Source: Planctomycetaceae bacterium UBA4732 (lineage in GTDB: Bacteria > Planctomycetota > Planctomycetia > Gemmatales > Gemmataceae). Taken from it: a stretch of DNA of 14,534 nucleotides. The notes below the pieces were generated by a model, which ran no database searches, was not told the origin of the DNA, and worked only from the letters and a program-made list of their open reading frames with translations. The stretch covers positions 1 through 14,534 of the forward strand of contig DHJA01000268.1 of assembly GCA_002404095.1 (NCBI GenBank), in the 5' to 3' direction. Shown in pieces: positions 1 to 13,959 of the stretch (its first letter is position 1; each line of letters opens with the position of its first letter). The position numbers and the translations under genes were made by a program.

Positions 1-567
1 CCACAGAAGTACGCTCTGATGATTTCCCAGGTTCCGAGCGAGGCTGTGAGCGTGGAACCGGATCGCATCAAGCTGATGGCTCACGTGCCGAAAGACGCTC
101 GGGTCTGGATCGAGGACGCCCCGACCACCTCCACCGGCGTCGAGCGCGTGTACAAGTCGCCGCCGCTTGTCCCCGGCAAGGAATATAGTTACACGATTCG
201 CGTGGCGTGGCCGGAGGACGGCCACTGGGTGTCAAAGGAAGCCGTCGCCCAGGTCAAGCCCGGCCAGTGCCACTGCTTCTACCTCGAACGGGCGGGGACG
301 CCGGTGGAGAAGGACGCGGACATCAAGGCCAACCTGGCCAAGCTTGCCCCCGAAGACCGGAAGCTCGCGGAGGAGCAGAAGTTCTGCGTCGTGCAGAGCG
401 ATACGCCGTTGGGCGCGGTGGGCGTACCAGTGAAAATCATGGTGAAGGGCCAGCCCGTGTTCCTGTGTTGCAAGACCTGTGTGAAGGAGGCCCAGGCGGA
501 CCCGGACAAGACGCTGGCCAAGCTCAAAGAACTGAAAGCCAAGAACGCCGAGCCGCCGCCAAATTGA
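1..567 (+). CDS. TIGR03000-like domain protein with C-terminal Cys-rich putative metal site (5' partial)
   Basis: The frame is open to the left edge. The first in-window ATG (19) has no Shine-Dalgarno, and from there the protein would lack a signal peptide, so the true start is probably upstream. Numbering from that ATG (182 residues), residues 17-90 read like the planctomycete TIGR03000 domain: VPKDARVWI, a T.STG..R.Y.SP.L core, then PGKEYSYTIRVAW. A helical linker (about 97-120) leads to a second module with C123 and a CCKTC cluster (C150, C151, C154) after the PVKIMVKGQPVFL strand. This resembles small YHS/heavy-metal-binding modules. C84 and C86 add a CxC. It lies 89 nt before the CusB-like gene, so a role in binding or sensing copper outside the cytoplasm is a reasonable inference. 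The molecular function is not established. Confidence 0.8.
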   Translation, partial: PQKYALMISQVPSEAVSVEPDRIKLMAHVPKDARVWIEDAPTTSTGVERVYKSPPLVPGKEYSYTIRVAWPEDGHWVSKEAVAQVKPGQCHCFYLERAGTPVEKDADIKANLAKLAPEDRKLAEEQKFCVVQSDTPLGAVGVPVKIMVKGQPVFLCCKTCVKEAQADPDKTLAKLKELKAKNAEPPPN

Positions 568-581
568 CGCGACGAGGTTCC

Positions 582-603
582 GGGGCGGTCTCTCGACCGC
601 CCC
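582..603 (+). terminator. Perfect 9-bp hairpin between first gene and cusB-like gene
   Basis: GGGGCGGTC, loop TCTC, GACCGCCCC: a perfect 9-bp GC stem starting 14 nt after the stop of the first gene. No T-run follows, so it is not a standard intrinsic terminator. It may be an attenuator, a 3'-end stabiliser or a Rho-related pause site in the leader of the efflux genes. Confidence 0.5.
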
Positions 604-642
604 CATCGGACGACAGGACACAACGCCGGAAGCGATCCGGCC

Positions 643-650
643 AAAGGAGG
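643..650 (+). promoter_or_regulatory. Strong ribosome binding site of the CusB-like gene
   Basis: AAAGGAGG ends 6 nt before ATG 657. It fixes the start, although the frame is open back to 207. Confidence 0.85.
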
Positions 651-656
651 ATCGTC

Positions 657-1904
657 ATGAAGGCGACGCGACGAACGTGGTTCATCGGGTCGGCGGCCGC
701 GGCCGTGCTACTGGCGGTCGCGGGCGGATTCTGGTTCGCCCACAGCCGCGGCTGGCTGGCCCCCGCCGAGAACTGGCTACAGAGCCTGACGCGGCGGGGC
801 GGCGCTGGCGGCGGCAAGGACATGGGCGGCATGAACATGCCGGGCGGCGAAACCTCTGAGGTTCCCGGCCAAGCGCAAGTGACCATCCCCGACGAGATCC
901 AACAGCGTATCGGCGTCACCATCGGCGCGGTCGAAAAGGCGCCTTTGAAGATGAGCATTCGCGCCGTCGGAATCGTGCAGGCCGACGAGACGAAGATCAA
1001 CCATGTCCACCTGAAGACCGAGGGCTGGGTAACGAAGCTCTCCGTGGACTACACCGGGCAGGTGGTGAAAAAAGGAGACCCGCTGCTGGCGATCTACAGC
1101 CCAGACTTCGTGACCACCCAGCAGAATTACCGCGACGCCCGCAAGTCCGGGCAGGCGTCGATGGCCGACCTGTCGCGGCAGCGGCTGGAGTTGTGGGACG
1201 TGCCGGCCGAGGAGATCAAGAAGCTGGAGAGCGGCGGCAAAGCCCCGACCGACCTGACCCTGCGCAGCCCGCTGACCGGGACCGTCCTGACCAAAAACGC
1301 CTTCGCCGGGCAGTACGTCATGCCCAAGGACGAGTTGTACGTCGTGGCGGACCTCTCGACGGTTTGGGTGCAGGCCAAGGTCTACGAGTACGAGCTGCCG
1401 CACGTCGAATTGGGCCAGCCGGCCGCCGTGACGCTTACCGCCGTCCCCGGCAAGGAGTTCACGGGCAAGGTCGCGTTCATCCAGCCCACCGTGGACGAGG
1501 CCACGCGAACCGCCGAGGTTCGCGTCGAGCTGCCGAATCCCAAGGGTCTGTTCAAGCCGGGCATGTTCGCCAACCTCGTCATCCAGCATACGATGGGGGA
1601 CGGCCTGCTCGTGCCGGCGTCGGCCGTCATCCACACCGGCGAGCGCGACATTGTCTTCAAGGCGGAGTCGGAAAATCGGTTCCTGCCGGTGGCGGTGAAG
1701 ATCGGCCCGTTCCCATTCGGCGACCGCTTCCAGGTTCTCGAAGGATTGGAGGCGGGCGACCGGGTGTCCACATCGGCCAACTTCCTGATCGACTCGGAGA
1801 GCCGCCTGCAAGCCGGCGGGGGCGGCATGGCGGGCATGGACATGGGCGGCAAGAAGGGCGGCGACATGAAAGGGATGGACATGGGCGACGGGAAGAAGCA
1901 CTGA
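657..1904 (+). CDS. cusB: CusB-like RND efflux periplasmic adaptor (membrane fusion protein)
   Basis: A 415-residue adaptor that would link the RND pump to the outer-membrane channel. An N-terminal signal/membrane segment (about 8-28) is followed by a Gly/Met stretch (M56, M59, M61). The lipoyl/barrel-sandwich halves lie at about 115-150 and 198-230, with a short helical hairpin between them (about 152-192). The beta-barrel is at about 235-310 (DLSTVWVQAKVYE; the R284-containing TRTAEVRVELPNP; FKPGMFANL) and the membrane-proximal domain at about 315-382. The C-terminal tail is Met-rich (M391, M394, M396, M404, M407, M409) and ends in His, which suggests Cu(I)/Ag(I) capture. It lacks the separate YTCPMHP-type metal-binding domain that many relatives carry. 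The start is set by the AAAGGAGG site. It is followed after 28 nt by a small membrane protein and then the CusA-type pump, as in an operon. Confidence 0.93.
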   Translation: MKATRRTWFIGSAAAAVLLAVAGGFWFAHSRGWLAPAENWLQSLTRRGGAGGGKDMGGMNMPGGETSEVPGQAQVTIPDEIQQRIGVTIGAVEKAPLKMSIRAVGIVQADETKINHVHLKTEGWVTKLSVDYTGQVVKKGDPLLAIYSPDFVTTQQNYRDARKSGQASMADLSRQRLELWDVPAEEIKKLESGGKAPTDLTLRSPLTGTVLTKNAFAGQYVMPKDELYVVADLSTVWVQAKVYEYELPHVELGQPAAVTLTAVPGKEFTGKVAFIQPTVDEATRTAEVRVELPNPKGLFKPGMFANLVIQHTMGDGLLVPASAVIHTGERDIVFKAESENRFLPVAVKIGPFPFGDRFQVLEGLEAGDRVSTSANFLIDSESRLQAGGGGMAGMDMGGKKGGDMKGMDMGDGKKH

Positions 1905-1932
1905 GCAGGCGTTGCGAAGCGAAGGGGATCGC

Positions 1933-2415
1933 GTGCCTACACAGAAGACCTCCCTCTGGACGTTCTTGCTCGCCCTGTGCCTGATCGCGTTCGGCCTGAA
2001 TTGGCCGTGGGAAATGGCGCAGATGCCGGCCTACGCCGAAATGGCCGGGCGTTCGTGGCTGGAAACCGCGCTCCCCTGCACGGTCGCCGCCCTGGGAGAC
2101 GTGGGGCTAACGCTAGGCGTCTGCGGCCTGGGCGCGCTTGCGGCAGGGAGGGCCGGCTGGGGAATGGAAGGCTCGTGGAACGTCTACGCGGCGGCGGCGC
2201 TGCTCGGCGGGATTTGCGCCCTGGCGTTTGAATGGCAGGCCCTGGCCTTCGGACGTTGGTCTTACGATGAAAGGATGCCGGTCGTGCCGCTACTCGGCGT
2301 GGGCCTGTGGCCCGCCCTCCAGTTGATCTTGTTGACGCCCGTTTCCCTGGGCGCCGCCCGTTGGTGTGTCAGGATGATGAGCCGCAAACGGCGAACCGAG
2401 GAGTTTTCCCCATGA
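1933..2415 (+). CDS. Unrecognised four-helix membrane protein between cusB and cusA
   Basis: A 160-residue hydrophobic protein with about four predicted membrane helices (about 8-24, 48-72, 83-105, 117-142) and a basic C-terminus (RMMSRKRRTEEF). I chose GTG 1933 because AAGGGG (1922-1927) sits 5 nt upstream. The frame also allows TTG 1912, which has no good ribosome site and would add seven residues. Noticeable motifs are NWPWEMAQMP after helix 1, and GRWSYDERMPVVP followed by GVGLWPALQ before helix 4, so aromatic residues and Met cluster near the membrane faces. I cannot assign a family. Its place between adaptor and pump, 28 and 31 nt from each, suggests co-transcription and a supporting role in metal efflux, but this is only context. 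Confidence 0.8.
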   Translation: MPTQKTSLWTFLLALCLIAFGLNWPWEMAQMPAYAEMAGRSWLETALPCTVAALGDVGLTLGVCGLGALAAGRAGWGMEGSWNVYAAAALLGGICALAFEWQALAFGRWSYDERMPVVPLLGVGLWPALQLILLTPVSLGAARWCVRMMSRKRRTEEFSP

Positions 2416-2446
2416 GCCGGATTTTCACCAATCAGGACACAGATCC

Positions 2447-5400
2447 ATGCTCGCACGCATCATCGACTTCAGCGCCCGCAATCGCCTCATCATGGTACTC
2501 TTCATCGTGGCCATCATCGGCGGCGGCCTCTATGCCGTCTACCACACCGCGCTGGACGCCATCCCCGACCTGTCCGACGTCCAGGTGATCGTCTACACCC
2601 CCTGGGAGGACCGCAGCCCCGACATCATTGAGGACCAGATCACCTACCCCGTCGTCACGGAACTGCTGTCCGCTCCCCACGTCAAGGCGGTGCGGGCCAC
2701 CTCCTTCTTCGGCTTCTCGCTCGTCTACGTCATCTTCGAGGACGGGACGGACCTCTATTGGGCGCGAAGCCGCGTTCTGGAGTACCTCAGCGGCATGGCC
2801 GGCAAGCTGCCCCCCGACGTGGCCCCCGCACTCGGCCCCGACGCCACCGGCGTCGGCTGGGGCTTGGAATACGCCCTCGTCGATACGACCGGCAAGCACG
2901 ACCTGGCCCAGCTGCGCAGCCTCCAGGATTGGAACGTGCAGTACCAGTTGCGCGCCGTGCCCGGCGTGGCCGAGGTCGCGGCGGTCGGCGCCTACGTCAA
3001 GCAGTACCAAATCACCATCGACCCCGACAAGCTGCTGGCCTACAAGGTGCCGATCAACCGCGTGGCCGACCGTGTCCGCAAGAGCAACCAGGAGGTGGGC
3101 GGCCGGGTGCTGGAGTTCACCGGCCACGAGTACATGGTGCGCGGCCGCGGCTACTTCAAAAAGCCGGCCGACATCGAGGAAGTCAGTCTGGGGGCGAAGG
3201 CGGACGGCACGCCGATCCGGGTGAAGGACGTCGGCTTCGTGCAGCTCGGCCCCGAAATCCGCCGGGGAGTGGTCGATTACAACGCCGAGGGGGACGCGGC
3301 CGGGGGCGTCGTCGTCATCCGCTTCGGCGAAAACGTCTACGACGTGATCCGCCGCGTCAAGCAGAAGCTGCACGACGATGTGCAGCCCACGCTCCCCGAG
3401 GGCGTCGAAGTTCGCATCGTCTACGACCGCTCCGAGTTGATCGAGCATTCGGTAGCCACTCTGCGCCAGAAGCTCATCGAGGAGAGCGTTATCGTCAGCA
3501 TCGTTTGCGTCGTGTTCCTGTTCCACTTCCGCAGCGCCCTGGTGGCCGTGCTTACTTTGCCGCTGGCCATCCTGCTGGCGCTCCTCGCCATGTGGGCGAT
3601 CGGCCTGACCTCCAACATTATGAGCCTCGGCGGCATTGCCATCGCCATCGGCGTTATGGTGGACGCCTCGATCGTCATGATCGAGAACGCCCTCAAGCAC
3701 ATCGAACACGAGCAGGCCAAGCCGGAGGGCGAGCGGCGGTCGCGCACCGAAGTGATCATCGCGGCGGCCAAGGAGGTGGGGCCGTCCCTGTTCTTCTCGC
3801 TGCTCATCATCACGGTGAGCTTCCTGCCGGTCTTCACGCTGGAGGACCAGGAGGGCCGCCTCTTCAAACCTCTGGCCTACACCAAGTCGTTTTCGATGGG
3901 CTTCGCGGCGCTCCTCGCCATCACGGTGACGCCCTTCTTGATGACGCTGTTGATCCGCGGCCGCATCCCGCCGGAGGACAGGAACCCGATCAATCGGTTA
4001 CTGATCTGGCTGTACCACCCCGTCGCCCGCCTGACGCTCCGCTGGCGCTACACCATGATTCTGCTGGCGGTGCTGGCCGTCGCCGCGGCCGTACCCATTT
4101 ACCTCAGTCTCGGCTCGGAGTTCATGCCGCCGCTGTGGGAGGAGACGATCCTGTACATGCCCACTTCCCTCCCTGGCGCGTCCATCGACGTCATGCGCCG
4201 GTCGATCCAGGATCAGGACCGCATCCTCATGGAATTTCCCGAAGTGGCCAGCGTCTTCGCCAAGGCTGGCCGCGCCGAAACCGCCACCGACCCGGCCCCA
4301 TTGGAAATGGTCGAGACCATCGTCAACCTCAAGCCCCCCGAACAGTGGCGGCCGGGCATGACGCACGAGCTTCTTATCGCCGAGATGGACAAGGCGCTGA
4401 AAGAGAAGCTGATTGGCTTCAGCAACAGCTGGACGATGCCCATCAAGGGCCGCCTCGACATGCTCGCCACCGGCATCCGCACCCCCATCGGCGTGAAAAT
4501 CTTCGGTCCGGACCTCAAGGAGATCAGCCGCATCGGCCAGGAGATGGAAAAGCACGTCGGCATGGTCCCCGGCACGCGCAGCGTGTTCGCCGAACACGTG
4601 GCCGAGGGCTATTACCTCGATTTCGACGTCCGCCGCGACGCCATCGCCCGCTACAACCTGACGGTCATGGATGTGGAGGAGGTCATCCAGTCGGCTGTGG
4701 GCGGCGCCGACGTGACCACGACCATTGAGGGGCGCGAGCGCTACCCGGTCAACGTCCGCTATGGCCGCGCCTTCCGCAGCGATCTTTGGAGTCTCAAGCG
4801 GGTGCTGGTGGAGACGCCGACGGGCGCGCAGGTGCCGCTGGAACAGCTGGCCGATCTGCGCATCACCTCGGGACCGGGCATGATTAAAAGCGAGGCGGCC
4901 CAGCCAGTCGGCTACGTCTATATCGACGTCGCCGCCCGCGACACCGGCGGCTATGTTGCGCAGGCCAAGGCGATGGTGGAGCAAAACGTGAAGCTGCCAG
5001 CGGGCTATCACCTGGAGTGGAGCGGATCGTATGAGTCCATGCAGCGCTCCAACCGCCGGCTGGCCTATGTGATCCCGGTGACGCTGTTGGTGATTTTCGT
5101 CCTGCTATACTTCAGTACGCGATCGGTGGCGAAGGTGCTGATCGTCTTGCTGGCGGTGCCCTTCTCGCTGGTGGGGGCCTTCCTGCTCCTCTACCTGCTG
5201 AACTACAACCTGAGTGTGGCGGTCTGGGTGGGGATCATCGCCCTGGCGGGGGTGGACGCCGAGACAGGGGTAATTATGCTGCTGTACCTGGACCACGCCC
5301 ACGACCGCCGGAAGCGGGAAGGCCGGATGAAAAATCTGAAGGACTTGGAGGAGGCGGTGCTTGAGGGCGCGGTGCAGCGGGTCCGCCCCAAGATGATGAC

Positions 5401-5623
5401 GGTGATGGCGATCCTGATGGGGCTGCTGCCCATCATGTGGTCCACGGGGACGGGGGCCGACGTGATGAAGCGCATCGCCGCCCCGATGGTCGGCGGCATC
5501 GTCACGTCCTTCATCATGGAACTGCTGATCTATCCGGCGGTCTACACCATCTGGAAATGGTGGGCCGAGGTGCGCAGGGTCGGCCGTCCCGACGGAACGG
5601 CGGAGACCGTGCGGCCGGAGTGA
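2447..5623 (+). CDS. cusA: CusA-type heavy-metal RND efflux pump (Cu/Ag class)
   Basis: A full-length (1058 residues) inner-membrane proton/metal antiporter of the HME-RND family. TM1 begins at about residue 14, porter domains lie at about 40-335 and 560-865, and TM bundles at about 340-550 and 870-1035. TM4 reads GGIAIAIGVMVDASIVMIEN with D406 and E413, matching the CusA-type proton-relay pair (E. coli D405/E412). The three methionines of the CusA metal site are present: M571 (ILYMPTSLPG), M621 (APLEMVET) and M672 (RLDMLATG). Together these favour Cu(I)/Ag(I) over the Zn/Co/Cd (CzcA) class. GVDAETGVIMLLYLDH near TM10-11 is also typical. ATG 2447 has a modest AGGA (2434-2437) upstream. It is the last + strand gene here and runs convergently into the - strand gene that ends 5 nt away. 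Confidence 0.96.
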   Translation: MLARIIDFSARNRLIMVLFIVAIIGGGLYAVYHTALDAIPDLSDVQVIVYTPWEDRSPDIIEDQITYPVVTELLSAPHVKAVRATSFFGFSLVYVIFEDGTDLYWARSRVLEYLSGMAGKLPPDVAPALGPDATGVGWGLEYALVDTTGKHDLAQLRSLQDWNVQYQLRAVPGVAEVAAVGAYVKQYQITIDPDKLLAYKVPINRVADRVRKSNQEVGGRVLEFTGHEYMVRGRGYFKKPADIEEVSLGAKADGTPIRVKDVGFVQLGPEIRRGVVDYNAEGDAAGGVVVIRFGENVYDVIRRVKQKLHDDVQPTLPEGVEVRIVYDRSELIEHSVATLRQKLIEESVIVSIVCVVFLFHFRSALVAVLTLPLAILLALLAMWAIGLTSNIMSLGGIAIAIGVMVDASIVMIENALKHIEHEQAKPEGERRSRTEVIIAAAKEVGPSLFFSLLIITVSFLPVFTLEDQEGRLFKPLAYTKSFSMGFAALLAITVTPFLMTLLIRGRIPPEDRNPINRLLIWLYHPVARLTLRWRYTMILLAVLAVAAAVPIYLSLGSEFMPPLWEETILYMPTSLPGASIDVMRRSIQDQDRILMEFPEVASVFAKAGRAETATDPAPLEMVETIVNLKPPEQWRPGMTHELLIAEMDKALKEKLIGFSNSWTMPIKGRLDMLATGIRTPIGVKIFGPDLKEISRIGQEMEKHVGMVPGTRSVFAEHVAEGYYLDFDVRRDAIARYNLTVMDVEEVIQSAVGGADVTTTIEGRERYPVNVRYGRAFRSDLWSLKRVLVETPTGAQVPLEQLADLRITSGPGMIKSEAAQPVGYVYIDVAARDTGGYVAQAKAMVEQNVKLPAGYHLEWSGSYESMQRSNRRLAYVIPVTLLVIFVLLYFSTRSVAKVLIVLLAVPFSLVGAFLLLYLLNYNLSVAVWVGIIALAGVDAETGVIMLLYLDHAHDRRKREGRMKNLKDLEEAVLEGAVQRVRPKMMTVMAILMGLLPIMWSTGTGADVMKRIAAPMVGGIVTSFIMELLIYPAVYTIWKWWAEVRRVGRPDGTAETVRPE

Positions 5624-5641
5624 GCGGACTATTCCTCCGGC
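5614..5641. terminator. Possible bidirectional terminator between convergent genes
   Basis: GCCGGAG (5614-5620) and CTCCGGC (5635-5641) form a 7-bp dyad around a 14-nt loop. It spans the stop codons of the pump gene and the opposing membrane protein. There is no T-tract, so this is a weak call. Confidence 0.3.
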
Positions 5642-6153
5642 GCCAGGCGCGCTTCCGTCGGGCTGTGGTCGAACAGTTCTTTCACGCCGGGGCGCGCCAA
5701 CACCACGATGGTGAAGACGCCGAGGATCGTGCCTAGCGGTATTTGAATGCAACAGATGCACGCATCGACGAAGCAGAACATATAACGCTTCTTCCGGGAG
5801 AGGTTATATCCCGTATAGAGGGCGAGCGCCGCCAGAACTAAAAAGAACAGACTGAGCCCGGCGCCTAAGCCGATCATCAGCCAGGCGATCTGGGCCTCCG
5901 GTACGGGAGGGCCGCCCGGCGGCGGCGTAGGCATGGAAAGCAACATGGCGCCGATCATTACATAGATCAGGGGGAAGAGGCCCACGAAGACCCCCAGGCC
6001 GCCCCAGACGTAATAAAGGATGGAGAGGATGCGTACATGCTCCTTGTCCTGCGAATACGGGCCGCGGCGAACGTCGTAATGGTCGTCGCGCCGGTAGTCG
6101 CGGTCTTCGTCCTCATTTTCTCGGTCCTGACCCGACGGCAAGTCGGACCGCAC
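5629..6153 (-). CDS. Small three-helix membrane protein with acidic N-terminus (probable start ATT 6174)
   Basis: From GTG 6153 the product has 174 residues: a highly charged N-terminus (about 1-40, rich in Asp, Glu and Arg) and three membrane segments (about 43-72, 88-114, 124-152). A Pro-rich loop PTPPPGGPP lies between the first two, and a short cytoplasmic tail carries RPGVKELF. The last helix (KKRYMFCFVDACICC..PLGTILGVFTIVVL) resembles a small family of membrane proteins I associate with planctomycetes and acidobacteria. No function is known to me. The only strong ribosome site (AAAGGAGG, 6182-6189) lies 28 nt before GTG 6153 but 7 nt before an in-frame ATT at 6172-6174. The native protein may therefore start at ATT and be 181 residues long. 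It follows the TolC-like gene on the same strand. Confidence 0.8.
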   Translation of the reverse strand: MRSDLPSGQDRENEDEDRDYRRDDHYDVRRGPYSQDKEHVRILSILYYVWGGLGVFVGLFPLIYVMIGAMLLSMPTPPPGGPPVPEAQIAWLMIGLGAGLSLFFLVLAALALYTGYNLSRKKRYMFCFVDACICCIQIPLGTILGVFTIVVLARPGVKELFDHSPTEARLAPEE

Positions 6154-6181
6154 GTAATCGTCGTCGGTGTTAATGGCTTGG

Positions 6182-6189
6182 CCTCCTTT
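6182..6189 (-). promoter_or_regulatory. Strong ribosome binding site pointing to an ATT start
   Basis: On the - strand AAAGGAGG is followed by CCAAGCC (7 nt) and then ATT AAC ACC GAC, in frame with the membrane protein. No ATG, GTG or TTG lies at a usable distance. Confidence 0.6.
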
Positions 6190-6270
6190 GCGTCGAGGTT
6201 CGCGCCTTCTGCCCCGCGGAAGTCTTCTTCCTCACACCATACTCGTACTTCGCACGGTAGGCGAGAAGAT

Positions 6271-7569
6271 TTACGGTTTCGGCGCGTCCGCCGTGGGAAG
6301 AGGACCGCCGACGGCCCGTTCCAGAGCCGCCCGGCGACGGAAGGCGTCGGCCGTGGCCTCGTAGTAGCGGTCGCGCAGCCCGACCACGCTCCGCTCCGCC
6401 TCGATCAGGCTGATAAAGGGGATTTTGGCCGTCGTGTAACTGGTTTGGGCGGACTTCACGTTCTGCTCGGCCGCGGGAAGGATGGTCTGCTCGTATAGGC
6501 GCACCGTCTTGTCGCTCTCCCCAGTTTCCTGGTAAGCCTGATCCACTGCGTAGTTCACGTCGTCCGTCAGCCGGTTCAGCTCCGCGATGCGCTGTCCGAG
6601 CCGCGCCTCGGCCTCGCGCACCGCCGCGTCGCGCTTCGCCAGCCGTATGGGTACGTTCATGCGCACGCCGACTTGCGGGCGCAACTGCCGCTCCGACCAG
6701 AAGTCGTCGTAGGCCGCCACGGCCTCGAAGTCCGGGTAGTACTCCTTGTGAGCGAGGCCAAGGGACGCCCGGTCGGCCGCGATGTGGTCGGCCATCGCCT
6801 GAAGGTCCGGCCGGCGGGCTAATGCGAGGGCGCGCAGCACGGTCTCGTCGGGCAACGTCCCCCTCGTCGGAACTTGCCCGGGCGGCGGCGGCAGGGGACT
6901 GTCGGGGGGCAGGTGCAGCAGCGTGTTGATGCGGGCGAGAGCCACCAGGCGCATGCGCTCCAGGGTCAGCTGCCGCTGGCGCTGTTGGCCGATTTCTACG
7001 TCGGCCTGGAGCAGATCCTGCTGCTGTACCGTGCCCGTCTTGTAGCGCGTCTCGGCGTTGCCGCGAAAGTCTTTCAGCAGGCGCAGGGACTCCCGGTTCA
7101 CCTCAAGGCCGCGTTCGGCCAGATAGTAATCGGCGAAGGCGTTGCGGGCGCTCTCGATAAGTTGCAGGCGCGTGTCCTCGACGTCGTGGCCCGCCGCTCG
7201 CGCCTCCGCTGCGGCGTTCTGGCCGCGCAGGCGCAGCTTTCCCGGCCAAGGATATTTCTGCGCCAATTCCAGGCGATAACCGCCGTCAAGGTCGTGGGAG
7301 CCGAACAAGCGCGGACTGATCGTGGCGGCGAACATCGGGTCTTCGAGGGAGACCACCTGCGGATAGCGAGCCGCGGCCGCTTCCGCGGCGGCGACCATCT
7401 GCGTCAGGGTGGGATTGCGCGCCAAGACTTGCTCGATCAACACATCAGCGGACAGCTCATGTGCATCGGCGAAAGGGCTGGACGCCGGCGGCGCGTCGGC
7501 GGCGATGCAGGCCAGGGCCGCGACGACCAGGAGAAACGATACGCCGGGCCGTTTCCTTGGATCGATCAT
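6271..7569 (-). CDS. TolC/CusC-like outer-membrane efflux protein
   Basis: A 432-residue outer-membrane channel of the TolC family and the probable exit duct for the CusBA-like pump. ATG 7569 is chosen over the longer open frame because AAGGAAGG (7576-7583) lies 6 nt upstream and the N-terminus (MIDPRKRPG, then a hydrophobic stretch at about 10-23) is a signal peptide. C21 in LALAC could be a poor lipobox, since CusC is a lipoprotein. The two OEP halves can be seen at about 40-220 (LARNPTL; QKYPWPGKLRLRG; R175-YKTGTVQQQDLLQA-D190) and about 245-420 (RRPDLQA; YYPDF; NVPI; TSYTTAKIPFISLIEAER). The gene is convergent with, not part of, the + strand adaptor/pump operon. Confidence 0.92.
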   Translation of the reverse strand: MIDPRKRPGVSFLLVVAALACIAADAPPASSPFADAHELSADVLIEQVLARNPTLTQMVAAAEAAAARYPQVVSLEDPMFAATISPRLFGSHDLDGGYRLELAQKYPWPGKLRLRGQNAAAEARAAGHDVEDTRLQLIESARNAFADYYLAERGLEVNRESLRLLKDFRGNAETRYKTGTVQQQDLLQADVEIGQQRQRQLTLERMRLVALARINTLLHLPPDSPLPPPPGQVPTRGTLPDETVLRALALARRPDLQAMADHIAADRASLGLAHKEYYPDFEAVAAYDDFWSERQLRPQVGVRMNVPIRLAKRDAAVREAEARLGQRIAELNRLTDDVNYAVDQAYQETGESDKTVRLYEQTILPAAEQNVKSAQTSYTTAKIPFISLIEAERSVVGLRDRYYEATADAFRRRAALERAVGGPLPTADAPKP

Positions 7570-7596
7570 CGCCAGCCTTCCTTGCCGGTGTGTGTG

Positions 7597-7616
7597 CAGG
7601 ACATCCCTTTGTCCTG
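7597..7616. promoter_or_regulatory. Perfect dyad (possible operator) upstream of TolC-like gene
   Basis: CAGGACA-TCCCTT-TGTCCTG: 7-bp perfect arms with a 6-nt spacer, centred about 37 nt before ATG 7569. It could bind a dimeric regulator or fold as a leader hairpin. I do not recognise a known metal-regulator box. Confidence 0.4.
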
Positions 7617-7663
7617 TTATCGGCGCGGCGCCGCCCTCCAATTCAGTAAAGTCGGCGCGGAAA

Positions 7664-7723
7664 GAATGAAGAATGAAGAATGAAAGACAATGGTTTTCAT
7701 TCTTCATTCTTCATTCTTCATTC
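7664..7723. repeat. GAATGAA heptamer inverted repeat at the 3' end of the oxidoreductase gene
   Basis: The left arm (7664-7685) holds three GAATGAA units. The right arm (7694-7723) holds four reverse-complement TTCATTC units. They are separated by a short loop (gacaatgg). The stem of about 22 bp is AT-rich, unlike the surrounding GC-rich DNA. The TGA stop of the Gfo/Idh/MocA gene (7722-7724) is embedded in the right arm. It is likely a 3'-end or terminator-like structure, or a mobile intergenic repeat. Confidence 0.75.
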
Positions 7724-8939
7724 ACTCCTTCCACGTCGCCGTCTGTCCGCTGCGCAAGGCGAGGTTCGCCAAGTGCATCGCGGCCGCCGCGCGCACGCCC
7801 GCCTCCACCGGCGCATTCGGCTCCTTCCGGCTGCGCACACACTCCACCCAGTTCGTCAAATGTAGCAATTCGCCGTCCGGCTTGTCGTAGAAGTCGCGGC
7901 CGCGCTGTTTATCTGTTCCGAGGATTAACTCCTCAAACTGTCCTTTACCGCGCTCCGGGAAGATCTGATAGCCGCCGCGGTCGATGTTAAGGGTCGCGTC
8001 CGTCCCCATGAACTCGATCATGGCGCCGTAGCGAGCGTTGGAGAACGTCGCCTCGAAGTAGACGTTCACATCGTTCGGATAGAGCAGCAGCGTCTCGGCC
8101 GTATCCGGCGTTTCCCACACGCCCTTGCTGTTAAAGTGCGATCCGATGGCCGTCGCCCGCAACGGGTGATCGAGGTCGAGCAGCCAGTCGGCCACGTCGA
8201 GCCAGTGGACGCCAAGGTCGGTGAAGACGCCGCCGCCGAAGTCCCAGAACCAACGCCAATTGCGAAAGCGATACTCGTCGAACGGCTGGGCCGGCGCGTT
8301 GCCCAGAAACGCCTTCCATTCCACGGTCTTGGGGTCGATGTTTAACGGCGTCTTCTGCACCCGGTCGCCGTTGCGGTTCCAGGTCAGATGCACTTTGGAG
8401 ATCTTGCCAAGGCGTCCTTCCTTGATGAGCTGGCGGGCTTTCGCAATATGCGGCATACTGCGCTGCTGCATTCCGACTTGAACGATCTGTTTTGACTTAC
8501 TTTGCGCCTCCAGGATGATCTTGCCCTCTTCCAGCTTGTGCGTCAACGGCTTTTCAACGTAGACGTCCTTGCCGGCGGCGACGGCGTCCACGGCCATCGG
8601 TACATGCCAATGGTCTGGGGCGCCAATAAGTACGGCGTCGATGTCCTTGTTGTCGAGAATATCCTTGTACACTTTCGTGGCGACGGCTTTGGGATCGGCG
8701 ATCTTGCGGGCGGCGTCGAGGTGGGCGTCGTAAATGTCACAGACGGCGGCGATGCGGACATTGGGGACTTTAACGAGTGATTTCATCAGCGTTTGGCAAC
8801 GGCCGCCGGTGCCGATGCAACCGATGTTGAGCGTTTCGCCGGCAGACCTGGCCCGCGCGGCGGGGGCGCCGACGGCGGCGAGCGCCGCGGCGGACGTCAT
8901 CAGGAAGGTACGGCGGGATACGTCATTTGGGATAGACAT
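7722..8939 (-). CDS. Tat-exported Gfo/Idh/MocA-family NAD(P)-dependent oxidoreductase
   Basis: A 405-residue sugar or sugar-derivative dehydrogenase of the glucose-fructose oxidoreductase family. ATG 8939 places SRRTFLM at residues 8-14 followed by a hydrophobic Ala-rich stretch, a clear twin-arginine signal with likely cleavage after APAARA (about 30). The Rossmann fold begins LNIGCIGTGGR (37-47). APDHWH (107-112) and the hallmark EKP (VYVEKPL, E129-P131) follow. The C-terminal domain has GGGVFTDLGVHWLDVADW with D241 and H245 in the usual active-site region. A longer GTG start at 8978 would overlap the upstream gene and bury the Tat signal. It lies 22 nt after the enolase-superfamily gene, so the two are probably co-transcribed. 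The substrate cannot be told from sequence. Confidence 0.93.
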   Translation of the reverse strand: MSIPNDVSRRTFLMTSAAALAAVGAPAARARSAGETLNIGCIGTGGRCQTLMKSLVKVPNVRIAAVCDIYDAHLDAARKIADPKAVATKVYKDILDNKDIDAVLIGAPDHWHVPMAVDAVAAGKDVYVEKPLTHKLEEGKIILEAQSKSKQIVQVGMQQRSMPHIAKARQLIKEGRLGKISKVHLTWNRNGDRVQKTPLNIDPKTVEWKAFLGNAPAQPFDEYRFRNWRWFWDFGGGVFTDLGVHWLDVADWLLDLDHPLRATAIGSHFNSKGVWETPDTAETLLLYPNDVNVYFEATFSNARYGAMIEFMGTDATLNIDRGGYQIFPERGKGQFEELILGTDKQRGRDFYDKPDGELLHLTNWVECVRSRKEPNAPVEAGVRAAAAMHLANLALRSGQTATWKE

Positions 8940-8961: not shown

Positions 8962-10065
8962 TCATTTTTCCGCAACACGATACTTCGCCGCCGCGTCCGG
9001 ATCGACCGTCAGGCCGAGTCCCGGCCCCGACGGCGGCATGAGCCGGCCGCTCTGAACTTGCGGCGGCGCCGTGAACAGCGGATACAGCCACGGCATGTAT
9101 TCCACCGACGCCACGAGCGGCAGACCGCACGCCAGATGGACGCCGATCTCCGGCAACAGGTGTGGCGACAACGGCCGATGACGTTGCTCGGCCAGCGCCG
9201 CCGTCTTCAACCAGCCGGTGACGCCGCCGAGGCGCGTCACGTCCGGCTGCACCACGTCCAGGGCGCCGCGGTCGAGGTAGGCGGCGAACTCGTCGCGGCC
9301 GAAGAGCATTTCACCCGCCGCGATCGGCAGGTCCAACTTCGACGCCAGTCGGGCGTGGCCCTCCACGTCTTCGCACGAAATCGGCTCCTCGAACCAGGCG
9401 GCGCCGATCTCTTCCTGAAAGAACCGGCCCATCGCCAGGGCGGTGGCATAATCGTAGCGCTCATTGGCGTCCACCGCCAGCCAGGCGTTGTCGCCGAACG
9501 CTTCGCGAAGCGTGGTAAGCCGGTCGGCGTCGGCCTCCGGGTCGGCGCCGACTTTGACCTTAATGCCCATCATGCCCTGATCGAAGTAGGGCTGCGACGC
9601 CTCGATAATCTGGTCCGTACTCATCCACAGCCAAGCGGAATCGGAACCGTAAACCGGCGTCGATTCGCGGGCGCCGCCGAGCAGCTTGTACAGCGGCATG
9701 TTGGCCGCCTTTGCCTTCAGATCCCACAAGGCCACGTCGAAGGCCGAATACGCCTGTTGCACCAGTCCGCGCCGGCCGACGGTCTGCAAACTCCAATAAA
9801 CCTTGGCGCCGAGGCGTTCATGATCGCGGGCGTCTTCGCCCTGAAGCAGAGGCGAAATGTCGTCCACGGCGACGGCGTGGAGGGCGCGGCCGCTGCTTTG
9901 GAGGGCATAGGCGAAGCCGAGGCCGCGCAGGCCGGCGTCCACGTCGAGTTGGACGAGCAGCACGGAGATTTGGTTAAGCCGGCCGGCCGCGGCCTCGTTC
10001 AGCGAGGCGCGCGGTCTCGACAGCGGGATTTTCAGTAGCTGACAGTCGATTCGCTCGATGCGCAT
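8962..10065 (-). CDS. Enolase-superfamily mandelate racemase/muconate lactonizing-type enzyme (acid-sugar dehydratase or racemase)
   Basis: A 367-residue cytoplasmic enzyme with the enolase-superfamily capping domain (about 1-125) and a beta-barrel (about 130-330). The KxK motif is K169-V170-K171. Metal-ligand positions are D199 (VDANERYD), E226/E227 (WFEEP) and E252 (AGE). The D275/H302 dyad (QPDVTRLGG; SPHLLPE) and E322 follow the mandelate-racemase subgroup pattern. That subgroup abstracts a proton alpha to a carboxylate and usually dehydrates sugar acids. The exact substrate is unknown. ATG 10065 is preceded by AGAGG with 6 nt spacing. It is the first gene of a likely two-gene operon with the exported Gfo/Idh/MocA oxidoreductase, suggesting uronate/aldonate catabolism. 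Confidence 0.92.
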   Translation of the reverse strand: MRIERIDCQLLKIPLSRPRASLNEAAAGRLNQISVLLVQLDVDAGLRGLGFAYALQSSGRALHAVAVDDISPLLQGEDARDHERLGAKVYWSLQTVGRRGLVQQAYSAFDVALWDLKAKAANMPLYKLLGGARESTPVYGSDSAWLWMSTDQIIEASQPYFDQGMMGIKVKVGADPEADADRLTTLREAFGDNAWLAVDANERYDYATALAMGRFFQEEIGAAWFEEPISCEDVEGHARLASKLDLPIAAGEMLFGRDEFAAYLDRGALDVVQPDVTRLGGVTGWLKTAALAEQRHRPLSPHLLPEIGVHLACGLPLVASVEYMPWLYPLFTAPPQVQSGRLMPPSGPGLGLTVDPDAAAKYRVAEK

Positions 10066-10176: not shown

Positions 10177-12387
10177 TTACTCGTTCGGGGCGGCCATCAT
10201 CACGCTCGTGTCGAGGATTTTGTCGTCGTCCTTTGTCGGCCCCGCGACCGGCAACGGGTCCAGGCCGCGCAGCCCCCGGCCGACGGAACTGCGCCTCATG
10301 CCATAGCCGAAGTAGATGCACAGGCCGATCACCAGCCAAATTACCAGACGCCACCAGGTGTCCGGCGGTAGGAAGAGCATCATCAGCATGTTGACGAGGA
10401 TGCCCAGCGGCCCCACGACCCAGATGAGCGGGCAGCGGAAGGGCCGTTCCGCCTCGGGCCTTTTGAGGCGCAGGAGCATGACGGCCGCGCAGACGATGAC
10501 GAAGGCGAACAGTGTGCCGATGTTGACCATCTCTTCCAGCTTTTGAATGGGGGTAATCGCGGCGACGACGGCGATGATGCCGCCGGTCAGCATGGTGGAG
10601 ATGTGCGGCGTGCGGAACTTCTCGTGGATGGCGGCGAAGACGGCGGGCGGCAGCAGATGGTCGCGCGCCATGGCAAGGAAGATGCGCGCCTGGCTGAGGA
10701 AAGTGATGAGCAGTACGCTAGTCATGCCGGCCAGGGCGCCGATGGAAATCAGCCCCGATGCGCCTAGCAAAAGGGGGTTGTTTAGCTCCAAGCCCTTGAC
10801 GGTGAAGGCGTTGGCCACGGCCGCGTCGGGATTGATCTTGTAATACGGAATCATTCCGGTCAGCACGGACGACACGCCGATGTAGAGTACGGTGCAGACG
10901 ACAAGCGAGGTCAGGATGGCGATGGGCACGTCACGCGCCGGCTTCTTGGCCTCCTCGGAGTGGGTGGACACGGCGTCGAAGCCAATGTAGGCGAAGAAGA
11001 CGATCGACGCTCCGAAGATGACGCCGGCCAGGCCGTAGGGCATAAAGGGCGAGCGGACCTGATCGTCCACCGACTCCAGATACTTATTCAATCCGAGATA
11101 GCCGAGAATACCCCATTTTTCCGTCGCATTGTGCGGCGCTTTTTCCACCACCGCCGCGAAGAGGCGTTGGGCGACGGCCTCTTCCTCCGGAGTGGAGGGA
11201 AGGTAAGCGTCTTCGTCCTCGGCCTGCTTCGACAAGTCGTCGGCTTGGGTCTGGTTGATCTGACCCTTCTCTTGACGGGCCGCCAAATCTTTGTCCGTAG
11301 CGGACTTGTTCGATACCGCCAACGTCGCCTTGAACTCCTCCATCTCGGCGTCGCGGTCGGCGGCCGTCATGGCGCCGGCGTCTACTTCCTGCTGCAATTC
11401 CTTGCGTTTCCGCTCGACGCGGTTGAGACCCCGGACCTCCGCGGTGAGTTGCTGGACTCGCGCCTTGGCTTCCTCCTCCGGTAGGCGGGCGGTTTCCTGG
11501 TAGAGCGCCTGGATTTGTCGCTTCACTTCCTCAATCCGGTCCCGCGCCTCCGGGGGAGTCAGCTTGGCCTTCTCGGTATAAAGCACTTTGATTTGCCCGG
11601 TGATGGCGTCGATGCGCCTCTCTGCCTCTTTGGTAGGTATTGTATCGCTCTTGACTGCCGCCTTCGCCAGATCGGGGATGGTCGTGTGATCTTCGGGAAA
11701 GATGCGTTTCGACGGCGATTGGCTAGTCCAGTTCGCCGGGTCGATGAAAAAGACCCCCACGCCGATGACGAAAAGGACGACGCCGACCTTGACGGCCACC
11801 AGGACGGCGTTGGTCGTGGCGCTCTCGCGGATGCCGATGACCAGGATCGCGGTCACGAGCAGGGTGATGAGCAGGGCCGGCAGGTTCAGCCACGCGCCGG
11901 GGTGCGAAAACGGGTCGTTGCAAAGGAAGTCCGGCACCGGCCCGCAATAGGGCACGTTCCACGCTTGGAGGACTTTGAGGAGTTCATTGAGATATTTCGA
12001 CCAGGCGGCGGCCACGCAGGCGCAGGCCATGGCGTATTCGAGGATGAGATCCCAGCCGATGATCCAAGCGAGCAGCTCGCCAAGCGTGGCGTAGGCGTAA
12101 GTATAGGCGCTGCCAGCCACGGGCGCCAGAGCGGCGAACTCGGCGTAGCATAGGGCGGCGAAGAGGCAGCCAAGGCCGGCCAAGACGAACGACAGCACGA
12201 TGGCCGGCCCTGCGTCGAGGGCGGCCGAGCGCCCGGTCATGACGAAGATGCCCGCCCCGATGATGGCGCCGACGCCGAGCGAGGTGAGGTTGATCGGCCC
12301 GAGAATGCGGCGCAGCCGATTATGGCCCACGGCCTCGGCGTGGAGCATTTCGAGCGACTTCGTGGCAAACAGCTGTTTCCAGAACAT
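10177..12387 (-). CDS. APC/CAT-family amino-acid permease with large TM5-TM6 insertion
   Basis: A 736-residue inner-membrane transporter, against roughly 450-500 for typical bacterial CAT-type members. ATG 12387 is chosen because TGAGG lies 6 nt upstream and the protein then starts MFWKQLFATKSLEML, the usual family beginning. GTG 12435 has no ribosome site. TM1 carries GVGAIIGAGIF (about 38-48) and TM6 has FFAYIGFDAVSTHSEE (about 464-479), both CAT signatures. About 12 helices are visible: 33-52, 61-85, 101-129, 167-186, 193-215, 452-474, 487-513, 538-567, 596-614, 620-639, 653-673 and 677-696. Between TM5 (ending FFIDPANW) and TM6 is a charged helical insertion at about 221-446, where relatives have a short loop. 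Family topology would place it outside the cytoplasm. The substrate is probably an amino acid, not specified further. Confidence 0.92.
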   Translation of the reverse strand: MFWKQLFATKSLEMLHAEAVGHNRLRRILGPINLTSLGVGAIIGAGIFVMTGRSAALDAGPAIVLSFVLAGLGCLFAALCYAEFAALAPVAGSAYTYAYATLGELLAWIIGWDLILEYAMACACVAAAWSKYLNELLKVLQAWNVPYCGPVPDFLCNDPFSHPGAWLNLPALLITLLVTAILVIGIRESATTNAVLVAVKVGVVLFVIGVGVFFIDPANWTSQSPSKRIFPEDHTTIPDLAKAAVKSDTIPTKEAERRIDAITGQIKVLYTEKAKLTPPEARDRIEEVKRQIQALYQETARLPEEEAKARVQQLTAEVRGLNRVERKRKELQQEVDAGAMTAADRDAEMEEFKATLAVSNKSATDKDLAARQEKGQINQTQADDLSKQAEDEDAYLPSTPEEEAVAQRLFAAVVEKAPHNATEKWGILGYLGLNKYLESVDDQVRSPFMPYGLAGVIFGASIVFFAYIGFDAVSTHSEEAKKPARDVPIAILTSLVVCTVLYIGVSSVLTGMIPYYKINPDAAVANAFTVKGLELNNPLLLGASGLISIGALAGMTSVLLITFLSQARIFLAMARDHLLPPAVFAAIHEKFRTPHISTMLTGGIIAVVAAITPIQKLEEMVNIGTLFAFVIVCAAVMLLRLKRPEAERPFRCPLIWVVGPLGILVNMLMMLFLPPDTWWRLVIWLVIGLCIYFGYGMRRSSVGRGLRGLDPLPVAGPTKDDDKILDTSVMMAAPNE
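11395..11628 (-). repeat. Three tandem 26-residue repeats inside the permease insertion
   Basis: Permease residues 254-279, 280-305 and 306-331 (ATG 12387 numbering) align without gaps. They begin EAERRIDAITGQIKVLY, EARDRIEEVKRQIQALY and EAKARVQQLTAEVRGLN. The pattern is amphipathic and charged, as expected for long helices or a coiled coil. Confidence 0.75.
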
Positions 12388-12393
12388 GCGATA

Positions 12394-12397
12394 CCTC
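12394..12397 (-). promoter_or_regulatory. Ribosome binding site deciding the permease start
   Basis: GAGG (within GTGAGGT) on the - strand, 6 nt before ATG 12387. The upstream GTG 12435 lacks such a site. Confidence 0.6.
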
Positions 12398-12482
12398 ACG
12401 TCCAGGGCGTCTGTACGGTACGGAGGATTATGCACGGACAGTCCACGAAGAGCAAGGATATGCCGTCAGAAAACGGATAGAT

Positions 12483-12923
12483 TTAATGCGCGTCGATAAT
12501 AAGAGTAACGGGACCGTCATTGACCAATTCAACTTGCATCAGGGCGCCAAAGCGGCCGGCGGCGACCGGAATACCGAGCGCGCGCACGCCGTTGAGGAAT
12601 GCCTCGTAGAGAGGTTCGGCGATTTCCGGCGCCGCGGCGCCGACGAAACTAGGCCGACGGCCCTTGCGGCAATCGCCATAAAGCGTGAACTGACTGACCA
12701 CCAGTACGCCGCCGCCGATTTCGGCCACGCCGCGATTCATTTTGCCGTCGGCGTCGGCGAAGATGCGCAGACCGACGACCTTGTCTGCCAGCCAATGCAC
12801 TTGGGCGACCGTATCGGTTGGCGCGACGCCGAGTAGCACGAGCAGACCCTGGCCGATGGCGCCGACGACCTCGTCGCCCACCAATACCCGCGCCGATCGG
12901 ACTCGCTGCACGACGGCGCGCAT
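12483..12923 (-). CDS. dtd: D-aminoacyl-tRNA deacylase
   Basis: A 146-residue cytoplasmic proofreading enzyme that hydrolyses D-aminoacyl-tRNA (and Gly-tRNA(Ala)), full length for bacterial DTD. It begins [13 protein letters not shown]. It has the LRIF.D.DGKMN segment (52-63), the active-site SQFTLYGD (77-84), and the C-terminal NDGPVT (135-140) that holds the Gly-cisPro chiral-selection motif (G137-P138). ATG 12923 is preceded by GAGGGAG (AGGG at 12931-12934, 7 nt spacing). The frame is open further upstream only through the neighbouring repeat and has no family similarity there. It lies 95 nt before the permease and may be co-transcribed with it. No functional link is obvious. Confidence 0.97.
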
Positions 12924-12939
12924 ATTCGCTCCCTCGCCA

Positions 12940-13023
12940 GGCGAACGGCCGGCGTGAGCCGGCTGGTACATTATGCTATCGCCGACAAAAGATGCACCAG
13001 CCGGCTTACGCCGGCCGTTCGCC
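12940..13023. repeat. Paired REP-like hairpins (element B)
   Basis: The 28-nt arms (12940-12967 and 12996-13023) are inverted repeats with a single mismatch and a 28-nt centre. Each arm folds alone into a stem of about 8 bp. The loop is GTGA (12954-12957) on the left and TTAC (13006-13009, GTAA on the other strand) on the right. The one mismatch falls inside the loop and keeps the GNRA pattern. It lies 9 nt behind the stop of the vWA gene and directly upstream of the dtd ribosome site. Confidence 0.8.
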
Positions 13024-13032
13024 AAAACCTTT

Positions 13033-13959
13033 TCACTCTTCAGGATCAATTCGCCGATACGTACCGCCGTTGTCGGCCGCCAACTTGTGCAGCGGACCGT
13101 CCGTCCGCGCGGCGCGGCCGCCGTGTAGCTCGATAACGTGAATGACCGTGCGGTGATCGCCCAGGCGCGTCACGGTTCGCACGTCATCCAAGCTCACGTC
13201 ATCGGCGTCCGTGAGAAAGTAGATGAGATCAGGATGAAATGCGATGGCGCGGCGGAGGGCGCGGCCGTGGTCGGTAGGGCCGGCCGCGCGCAATGCGGTT
13301 ACGGATTCGGCGGCCATCCGTACCGTATTGGGGTCGGCAGCGAGCAGCCCATAGCGGCCGTCAACGCCCATCGGCTCGGCCTCACGGTTATACGCGATGA
13401 TCTGGAAACGGGTGGAAGGCCCCAAGCGCCTAAGACTGGCGAGGATTTCAAGGCGGGCGCGGGCAAGGGCGCCGTGAAAGCCCATGCTGATGGAGCGATC
13501 AACGACGTAGACGACGCTTCGCGCCGACCTCCCGACTTCCAGGGCGCAGGGAGCATTTCCTTTTCCCGTTTCATCGCCGGCCTGGCCTGGCGAAGAAGCA
13601 GGAGCACCCGCTCCCGGCGCCGTCAAACCCGGCGCGGCGACCACCGTCTGCGGCAACAAGGCAGGCGCGGGAGGCGAGTCCACAAGATGGACATCGAAGG
13701 ACGCCTGAGCGAGACGTGGGTCGTCGTGTGGTTTCTGCGCTGCCGCGACAGGTTTGGTACGTGGCGGGGTGTCGTCGAGACGCAGGGTGCAATCGTTTTC
13801 GTGAGGCGCTTGAGTAAGGTCCGCGTCGGCAGACGAAACCGTCTGACGCGCGGGGAACTGCCACAGTCCCACGACGAATAAGCCGTGAAGCACAAGCGAA
13901 AGAACCACCGGCGCGGCGTAGCGCGCCAGGACGGAAACCTTTCGGGTCGGCGAGCGCAT
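13033..13959 (-). CDS. Membrane-anchored von Willebrand factor A (vWA) protein with TonB-like N-terminus
   Basis: A 308-residue protein. Residues 17-34 ([18 protein letters not shown]) form one membrane anchor with the S21-x3-H25 pattern and the following G/VVGL stretch of TonB's transmembrane helix. A low-complexity Pro/Ala linker (about 36-137) leads to a vWA domain at about 147-300. This has a complete MIDAS: D154-x-S156-x-S158 (VVDRSISMG), T229 (GPTDHGRAL) and D251 (YFLTDADD). A divalent metal and a protein ligand are therefore likely bound in the periplasm. ATG 13959 has AAGGA about 9 nt upstream. It sits 44 nt after the lipoprotein gene on the same strand, so the two are probably co-transcribed. 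The ligand is unknown. I see no ExbB/ExbD genes in the window. Confidence 0.88.

Follow-up and report, generated by a model that had tools for sequence, protein, structure and literature searches.

A predicted helical insert between transmembrane helices 5 and 6 marks one branch of planctomycete CAT-type amino-acid permeases

The loop between transmembrane helices (TM) 5 and 6, the third extracellular loop (EL3 or ECL3), is known to matter in several described transporters. In KCC (SLC12), a large extracellular domain lies between TM5 and TM6 and an outer-gate role has been proposed for it, as discussed for KCC4 (PMC7200160). In yeast Lyp1, of the YAT family, EL3 is lengthened and functionally important, with 50% of EL3 mutations impairing location or activity (PMC7687128), and in mCAT1 (SLC7A1) ECL3 moves with TM1b and provides the surface to which a viral protein binds (PMC13022406). 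In yeast Ssy1 the loop, there called EL5-6, is lengthened by about 60 residues (PMC12958826). These and the other reports named below are cited from excerpts. Here we describe a CAT-type APC amino-acid permease, encoded in a stretch of 14,534 nucleotides from Planctomycetaceae bacterium UBA4732 (contig DHJA01000268.1; the whole stretch is called the window), which carries 226 additional residues at this place.

The solved structure closest to the window permease is GkApcT (PDB 5OQT/6F34; E about 1e-126), with which it has in common the LeuT-type fold and 52% identity over the structurally aligned core. The match came in two pieces: phmmer aligned query residues 6–221 with chain residues 3–212 and query residues 446–703 with chain residues 212–461, both in frame. 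Since the pieces meet at chain residue 212, GkApcT does not have any residue at the place of the insert, and nothing stands between its NWT and PFMPYG signatures. A sequence-only reading of the window had proposed an in-frame insert of about 225 residues at 11050..11727 between TM5 and TM6, and residues 221–446 do correspond exactly to 11727–11050. Its estimate that the two signatures normally lie about a dozen residues apart was roughly right, with none in GkApcT and loops of 16–39 residues, flanks included, in ordinary CATs.

By Pfam models the permease is a member of AA_permease_2, AA_permease and AA_permease_C, scoring above the gathering cut-offs of PF13520 (151.4; cut-off 27), PF00324 (120.8; 24.6) and PF13906 (43.1; 27). 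It remained below the cut-offs of the BcaP equivalog NF053761 (539 bits; 690), as did an ordinary paralogue (572.7), and of the NCBIfam models TIGR00909 and TIGR00906 (404.9 and 396.4 bits; 556.8 and 681.7). The stop codon occupies 10177–10179 and the frame is open from either a GTG or an ATG (Table 1). The ATG is the more likely start because most full-length homologues start there, and the GTG would add 16 residues that are unseen in most relatives.

Of the 226 residues of the insert, 78 are charged (34.5%; 35 Lys and Arg, 43 Asp and Glu), and there is no TM-like stretch (the highest 19-residue Kyte-Doolittle mean was 0.37). When modelled alone, the insert is predicted to form an all-helical domain (predicted local distance difference test, pLDDT, 85), in keeping with its earlier description as helical and highly charged; no convincing relative of the insert alone was found in the PDB. 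We infer that it lies on the extracytoplasmic, periplasmic side, as had also been suggested from topology, because the TM5–TM6 loop is the third extracellular loop in the homologues GkApcT and mCAT1. The charges of the remaining loops, with 16 Lys and Arg in 122 inside residues and 2 in 57 outside residues without the insert, are in weak agreement with this placement. The KCC domain occupies the equivalent place of an APC-fold transporter, but the KCC loop has disulfides and glycans, whereas the window insert has no Cys, and the substrates differ. KCC was not among the listed PDB sequence matches of the insert or the listed matches of the insert-only model, which excludes nothing. The ECL3 of mCAT1 is the equivalent loop but far shorter, and the longer EL3 of Ssy1 amounts to tens of residues, not a domain of 226.

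When the insert region of the window protein was used as query, 51 clusters were obtained, each with a permease Pfam domain; a further 19 came from a second search that started from a shorter member, giving 70. The insert is present in 69 of them, 68 by the base-motif pattern given below and one (P0019) with one extra residue; in P0069 the frame breaks inside the insert. The organism is named for seven of the 70 clusters and is a member of the Gemmataceae or Pirellulales. The insert does occur in other planctomycete permeases, as the sequence-only reading had asked. Within the order, an insert profile matched 17 of 102 genomes, spread over 8 of 44 genera; within the class the figures were 30 of 397 genomes and 19 of 185 genera, and across the phylum 3 of 392 genomes, all three from the window's class; the window genome is included each time, and the counts are lower bounds because the initial pass scored only some candidates per genome. 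Among the 30 genome loci, 26 have the insert and the other four only its base. A scan of species genomes with two short patterns gave 16 loci, and the insert-bearing ones (L031–L034 and L036) were all planctomycete; this is again a lower bound, since the scan overlooked known members, and L031 is the same as G017 while L032–L033 are one genome on two contigs. With tblastn against plasmids 84 records were obtained, none with 80% of the query covered in one place. At one locus (L080, G036:C207, about 8127–8148) an insert CAT is broken into two overlapping frames, either by a sequencing error or because the gene itself is broken.

Ordinary CATs are far commoner. Starting from a neighbouring ordinary paralogue we obtained at least 8000 matches, and neither the insert nor the base motif was found among the 120 listed; the short spacing applies to all 120, as 117 were measured and three seeming outliers were motif mis-hits. 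A second set of 33 ordinary CATs overlaps these by two proteins, and the insert was absent from all 151 distinct rows. An equally long loop is thus not a property of most CATs, nor is the insert peculiar to this assembly. In the window genome, which is about 90% complete, no close ordinary CAT was found; four matches were counted there, and the two others listed were about 30% identical. No description of the insert was found in the titles and abstract openings of the open-access papers listed by literature searches, which is no proof of its being unpublished. The insert permeases are a real, branch-defining, new version of a known transporter type.

Comparison with relatives brought out features that the sequence-only reading could not see. 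The insert permeases form one branch, their insert consists of a constant base and a crown that can be dispensed with, it contains internal repeats, and linked changes have taken place at the selectivity site and in the outer gate. The membrane-proximal base, with the pattern KWGxLGxxGLNxxLxxxDDxxRS, is the best conserved part of the insert: W425, G426, L428, G432, L437, D441 and R445 are invariant in a 66-row alignment, and the segment W425–R445 leads straight into TM6a. A lead, NWxxxPxxxRxxPE, also recurs. The window permease has the base motif before TM6 and its place is inside the branch. Four relatives from genomes of the class (L103–L106) retain lead and base with next to nothing in between, the base alone being about 37 residues. 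Loop length, counted with flanks (window residues 228–468 in the 752-residue numbering), was 16–32 residues in all 33 ordinary CATs of one alignment and 16–39 in all 32 of another, 54–56 in the four base-only relatives, and 106–296 in all 82 insert-bearing rows. Because of the loops of 54–56 residues, loop length is a graded series. Given L103–L106, which are nested among crown-bearing rows, neither two discrete length classes nor permanence of the insert can be maintained.

The crown is partly repetitive. The profile of its long form matched itself at an offset of 26 with a score of 33.4 and at 52 with 32.3, against a background of 200 column shuffles (mean 12.1, s.d. 3.1, maximum 23.1); the score of 23.5 at offset 37 should not be relied on, as column shuffles also destroy helix periodicity. 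Shorter crown forms, with an insert of about 167–174 residues, are without about 56 residues, that is two repeat units. The crown appears to have been built and trimmed partly through tandem units of about 26 residues.

In a FastTree of 115 rows, built with EL2 and EL3 removed, all 82 insert rows formed one clade (re-rooted node support 0.469). An IQ-TREE of 81 rows (48 insert, 33 ordinary) needed one change, with a value of 100 in the SH-like approximate likelihood ratio test (SH-aLRT), and when 11 loci from genomes of the class were added (83 rows thinned at 88%, loop removed: 47 with crown, 4 base only, 32 ordinary) the insert/base branch was again one change (SH-aLRT 99). The 115-row tree omits P0022, P0034, P0057, P0069 and P0070, and the 81-row tree drops 34 of the 115 rows above 90% identity; the two smaller trees are quick searches with long-branch warnings, chiefly for ordinary rows. 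From alignment A2 we left out P0022 (tail out of frame), P0034 and P0070 (fragments), P0069, and P0042 (a near copy). By these trees the base-bearing permeases are one branch of the CAT family. Inside it L103–L106 are scattered among crown-bearing rows, so that the base-only state takes three changes on the tree, only one of them forced by strongly supported branches, and long and short crowns interchange at least five times. The crown was probably lost, or gained, repeatedly while the base stayed constant. The anatomy and evolution of the insert branch are well supported.

Substitution rates were estimated for the 18 of 78 pairs with a core identity above 0.78, none of which includes the window protein. 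By the Nei-Gojobori method, the non-synonymous and synonymous values (dN/dS) for the pair G466/G465 were 0.036/0.741 in the core and 0.143/1.302 in the insert, and for G477/G482 they were 0.083/0.861 and 0.265/1.576. By dN, the insert changes about 3–5 times faster than the core. Its dN/dS ratio ranged from 0.11 to about 0.6 in the 17 pairs with a usable estimate, where dS was frequently near saturation. In close pairs the insert is under purifying selection.

The core itself is at least 67% identical to the window protein in 65 aligned relatives. The authors of the GkApcT study showed that Glu115 (proton coupling), Lys191, Phe231 and Asp237 matter (PMC5803215), and E115, K191, F231 and D237 are all retained in the window permease, which is probably transport-competent and proton-coupled. 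In GkApcT, Met321 blocks large side chains and its change to Ser gave strong arginine binding (PMC5803215). The window permease differs here, with Thr562 in place of Met, whereas the pocket residues at Val317 and Ile234 remain GkApcT-like. Among the 82 insert rows, 74 have Thr at site 562, 7 have Ser and 1 has Leu (Thr or Ser in 81); of the 33 ordinary rows, 21 have Met there, 4 have Leu, 4 Phe, 3 Gly and 1 Gln, and of the further 120, 116 have Met and 4 have Leu, so Thr or Ser is found in none of the 151 distinct ordinary rows. It is a reasonable guess that, compared with ordinary paralogues, the substrate is larger or more cationic, with the caveat that Thr is not the Ser of the tested GkApcT change.

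Sixteen core positions hold residues that are near-fixed among the insert rows and that few ordinary rows share; they include Met50, Arg53 and Asp58 in TM1b, as well as Glu618. A basic residue at 53 together with an acidic one at 618 was found in 72 of the 82 insert rows and in no ordinary row (0/33 and 0/120; 0/151 distinct); GkApcT has Val and Ala at these sites. The pair resembles the ionic gate between TM1 and TM10 that has been reported in LeuT and KCC4 (PMC7200160). Positions 50, 465 and 614 align with Leu53, Tyr257 and Leu398, which make up the extracellular gate of mCAT1 (PMC13022406). Ordinary planctomycete CATs belong to the same family, and several share a neighbourhood with dtd, the D-aminoacyl-tRNA deacylase gene, with the insert CATs; they differ in having the short EL3, Met, Leu, Phe, Gly or Gln at 562 and no 53/618 pair. 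The outer-gate changes are a lead to coupling with the insert, not proof of it.

We tentatively favour, at slightly less than even confidence, a working CAT permease whose base has co-evolved with the outer gate and belongs to it, with the crown as an accessory. This is suggested by a base that is constant and continuous with TM6a, by transport machinery that has been kept, and by the changed gate and pocket. EL3 in one planctomycete branch would have gained a constant base segment leading into TM6a, and in most known members the base would carry a folded, all-helical crown, which may act as a lid above it. The same branch would have altered its outer gate (basic TM1b, acidic TM10) and its selectivity residue (Met to Thr or Ser). 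The base, as part of the outer gate or vestibule, might contact the gate and move with TM1b and TM6a, altering outer access and the capture of a larger or more cationic substrate, and Arg53 and Glu618 could form a salt bridge. In this way the domain probably alters how amino acids are admitted. A bolder form of this idea, in which the outer gate as a whole has been rebuilt, with the base fused to TM6a, a TM1b–TM10 ionic pair, a changed pocket and a modular crown of undescribed fold, seems to us a doubtful though real possibility. If true, the rebuilt gate would be a single-chain, convergent counterpart to the extracellular domain of KCC and the heavy chains of SLC7 transporters.

Several observations weigh against assigning the base to the gate. 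The crown-less state occurs inside the branch, so the crown cannot be essential to the base's role. The insert evolves faster than the core, being 27–61% identical between the window protein and 63 relatives (its two nearest, P0001 and P0002, are omitted) where the core is 67–89% identical. The amphipathic moment of the base helix is unremarkable (0.22–0.26). The link to site 562 and to the 53/618 pair is weakened by the 11 extra loci of the class, where 9 have Thr and 2 have Leu at site 562 and where, of 10 readable cases, 5 show the pair. Clade-specific positions made up 8 of the 155 outer positions and 8 of the 300 others, which is no significant excess on the outer side (Fisher p 0.19). 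Finally, the linked changes all fall on one branch and so cannot count as independent evidence.

The variable, droppable crown leaves room for two other readings. SLC7 light chains are bound by heavy chains, and on this model the crown would be a docking domain for a periplasmic or envelope partner, or for an adjacent second permease, and would control assembly, stability or location and not the gate; we consider this unlikely. The crown is charged, soluble, fast-evolving and variable in size, as a docking surface might be, and a second APC permease is adjacent in 7 of the 30 loci (L078, L079, L082, L083, L084, L086 and L087); the one in L083, the sole one scored against family models, was LAT-like, with TIGR00911 the best model but below its cut-off. 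EL3 mutants of Lyp1 also affect location and activity alike (PMC7687128). However, no gene family other than the permease is common to the 30 loci within the stretches covered, in a count that ignores open-reading-frame clusters overlying the permease or its neighbours in other frames: dtd is present in 10, priA in 8 and neither in 17, two of these from the window's family. Moreover, dtd precedes ordinary CATs too, and the second permease is missing from the window's own locus. Partner binding, like substrate capture, had been put forward in the sequence-only reading and is conjectural.

Alternatively, the base may serve folding or gating while the crown is a weakly constrained expansion, a tolerated spacer produced by repeat slippage. 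The range of loop lengths (54–296 residues), the missing crown in four nested members, the repeated switches between long and short crowns and the several-fold faster evolution of the insert would all be expected of such a spacer. The confident autonomous fold predicted for the insert and the purifying selection in the closest pairs would not, nor would the retention of Arg310, in the third crown unit, in at least 90% of 66 crown-bearing rows, although these rows were found by crown similarity and retention is over-represented. On balance, we consider a spacer unlikely, slightly more so than docking. A transceptor like yeast Ssy1, in which the insert would aid sensing and not transport, is very improbable: Ssy1 also has a longer EL5-6, by about 60 residues (PMC12958826), but the key transport residues are kept here, no signalling neighbour is common to the 30 loci, and about 30 residues precede TM1 of the window permease, compared with the cytoplasmic N-terminal domain of about 280 residues in Ssy1. 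The matches in the window genome, given above, also speak against it, and the sensing role suggested earlier is disfavoured. A chimeric assembly or an erroneous fusion of two genes, which the sequence-only reading had already dismissed, is refuted, since 69 of the 70 clusters and 26 of the 30 genome loci have the insert at the same place.

Returning to the base as part of the outer gate, the branch offers a natural series on related cores, from an ordinary loop through the base alone to about 280 residues. With this series, the effect of an added outer domain on SLC7-type gating and selectivity can be tested without a second subunit. The base-only L103–L106 are good natural controls, and two close pairs, L103/L091 and L105/L094, differ in the crown.

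Table 1. Coordinates of the permease, its insert and neighbouring genes in the window
Feature	Position	Strand	Basis or remark
CAT-type APC amino-acid permease	10177..12435	-	752 aa from GTG 12435, 736 aa from ATG 12387
TM5–TM6 insert, residues 221–446 of the 736-aa form	11050..11727	-	absent from GkApcT alignment
Membrane-proximal base, residues 424–446, KWGILGYLGLNKYLESVDDQVRS	11050..11118	-	conservation; part retained in base-only relatives
Crown repeat unit 1, about residues 246–271	11575..11652	-	profile self-match, offsets 26 and 52
Crown repeat unit 2, about residues 272–297	11497..11574	-	profile self-match
Crown repeat unit 3, about residues 298–323	11419..11496	-	counterpart persists in forms without about two units
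Second, weaker internal repeat, about residues 323–346 and 360–383, offset 37	11239..11421	-	profile self-match
Arg53, TM1b, outer side	12229..12231	-	proposed partner of Glu618
Glu117, equivalent to GkApcT Glu115, proton-coupling residue, TM3	12037..12039	-	alignment
Lys200, equivalent to GkApcT Lys191, TM5	11788..11790	-	alignment
Asp471, equivalent to GkApcT Asp237, TM6b	10975..10977	-	alignment
Thr562, equivalent to GkApcT Met321, substrate selectivity	10702..10704	-	alignment; PMC5803215 (excerpt)
Glu618, near outer end of TM10	10534..10536	-	proposed partner of Arg53
dtd, D-aminoacyl-tRNA deacylase	12483..13049	-	directly upstream of permease; TIGR00256 181 bits, cut-off 101.5
Mandelate racemase/muconate lactonizing (enolase superfamily) enzyme	8962..10065	-	downstream of permease

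The gene neighbourhood varies among the loci, and no partner gene beyond the permease itself is common to them. In G030, dtd is followed by an ordinary CAT, a second APC permease, the insert CAT and priA, and G027 differs in that the insert CAT and the second permease have exchanged places; in G477 and G482 the order is dtd, second permease, insert CAT and priA. We also noticed three consecutive permeases between dtd and priA at L079 and L087, where the order of insert CAT and second permease is reversed between genomes. A linkage of dtd specific to the insert CATs was refuted, as dtd is also upstream of ordinary CATs (L011–L015, L017, L020 and L081); the insert CAT thus arose in, or moved into, an old CAT locus. 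The enolase-superfamily enzyme downstream of the window permease is talarate/galactarate-dehydratase-like, below the model cut-off, and is a neighbour in only a few related genomes.

In some ordinary CATs, which have no EL3 insert, it is EL2 (TM3–TM4) that is long, at 86–135 residues compared with 35–78 in other ordinary CATs. They come from planctomycetes and acidobacteria (L010–L013, L015, L040, L041, L044, L046 and L081), and the long EL2 is an outer-loop elaboration separate from the EL3 insert. At L073 there is a run of N, either masked or unresolved bases, from about 16545, near the contig end. Elsewhere in the window, the region 207–7707 contains genes which, by eye, we take to encode a CusB/CzcB-like membrane-fusion protein, a CusA/CzcA-like RND pump (2447–5623) and, on the opposite strand at 6271–7707, a TolC-like outer-membrane factor, the three perhaps being a metal efflux set.
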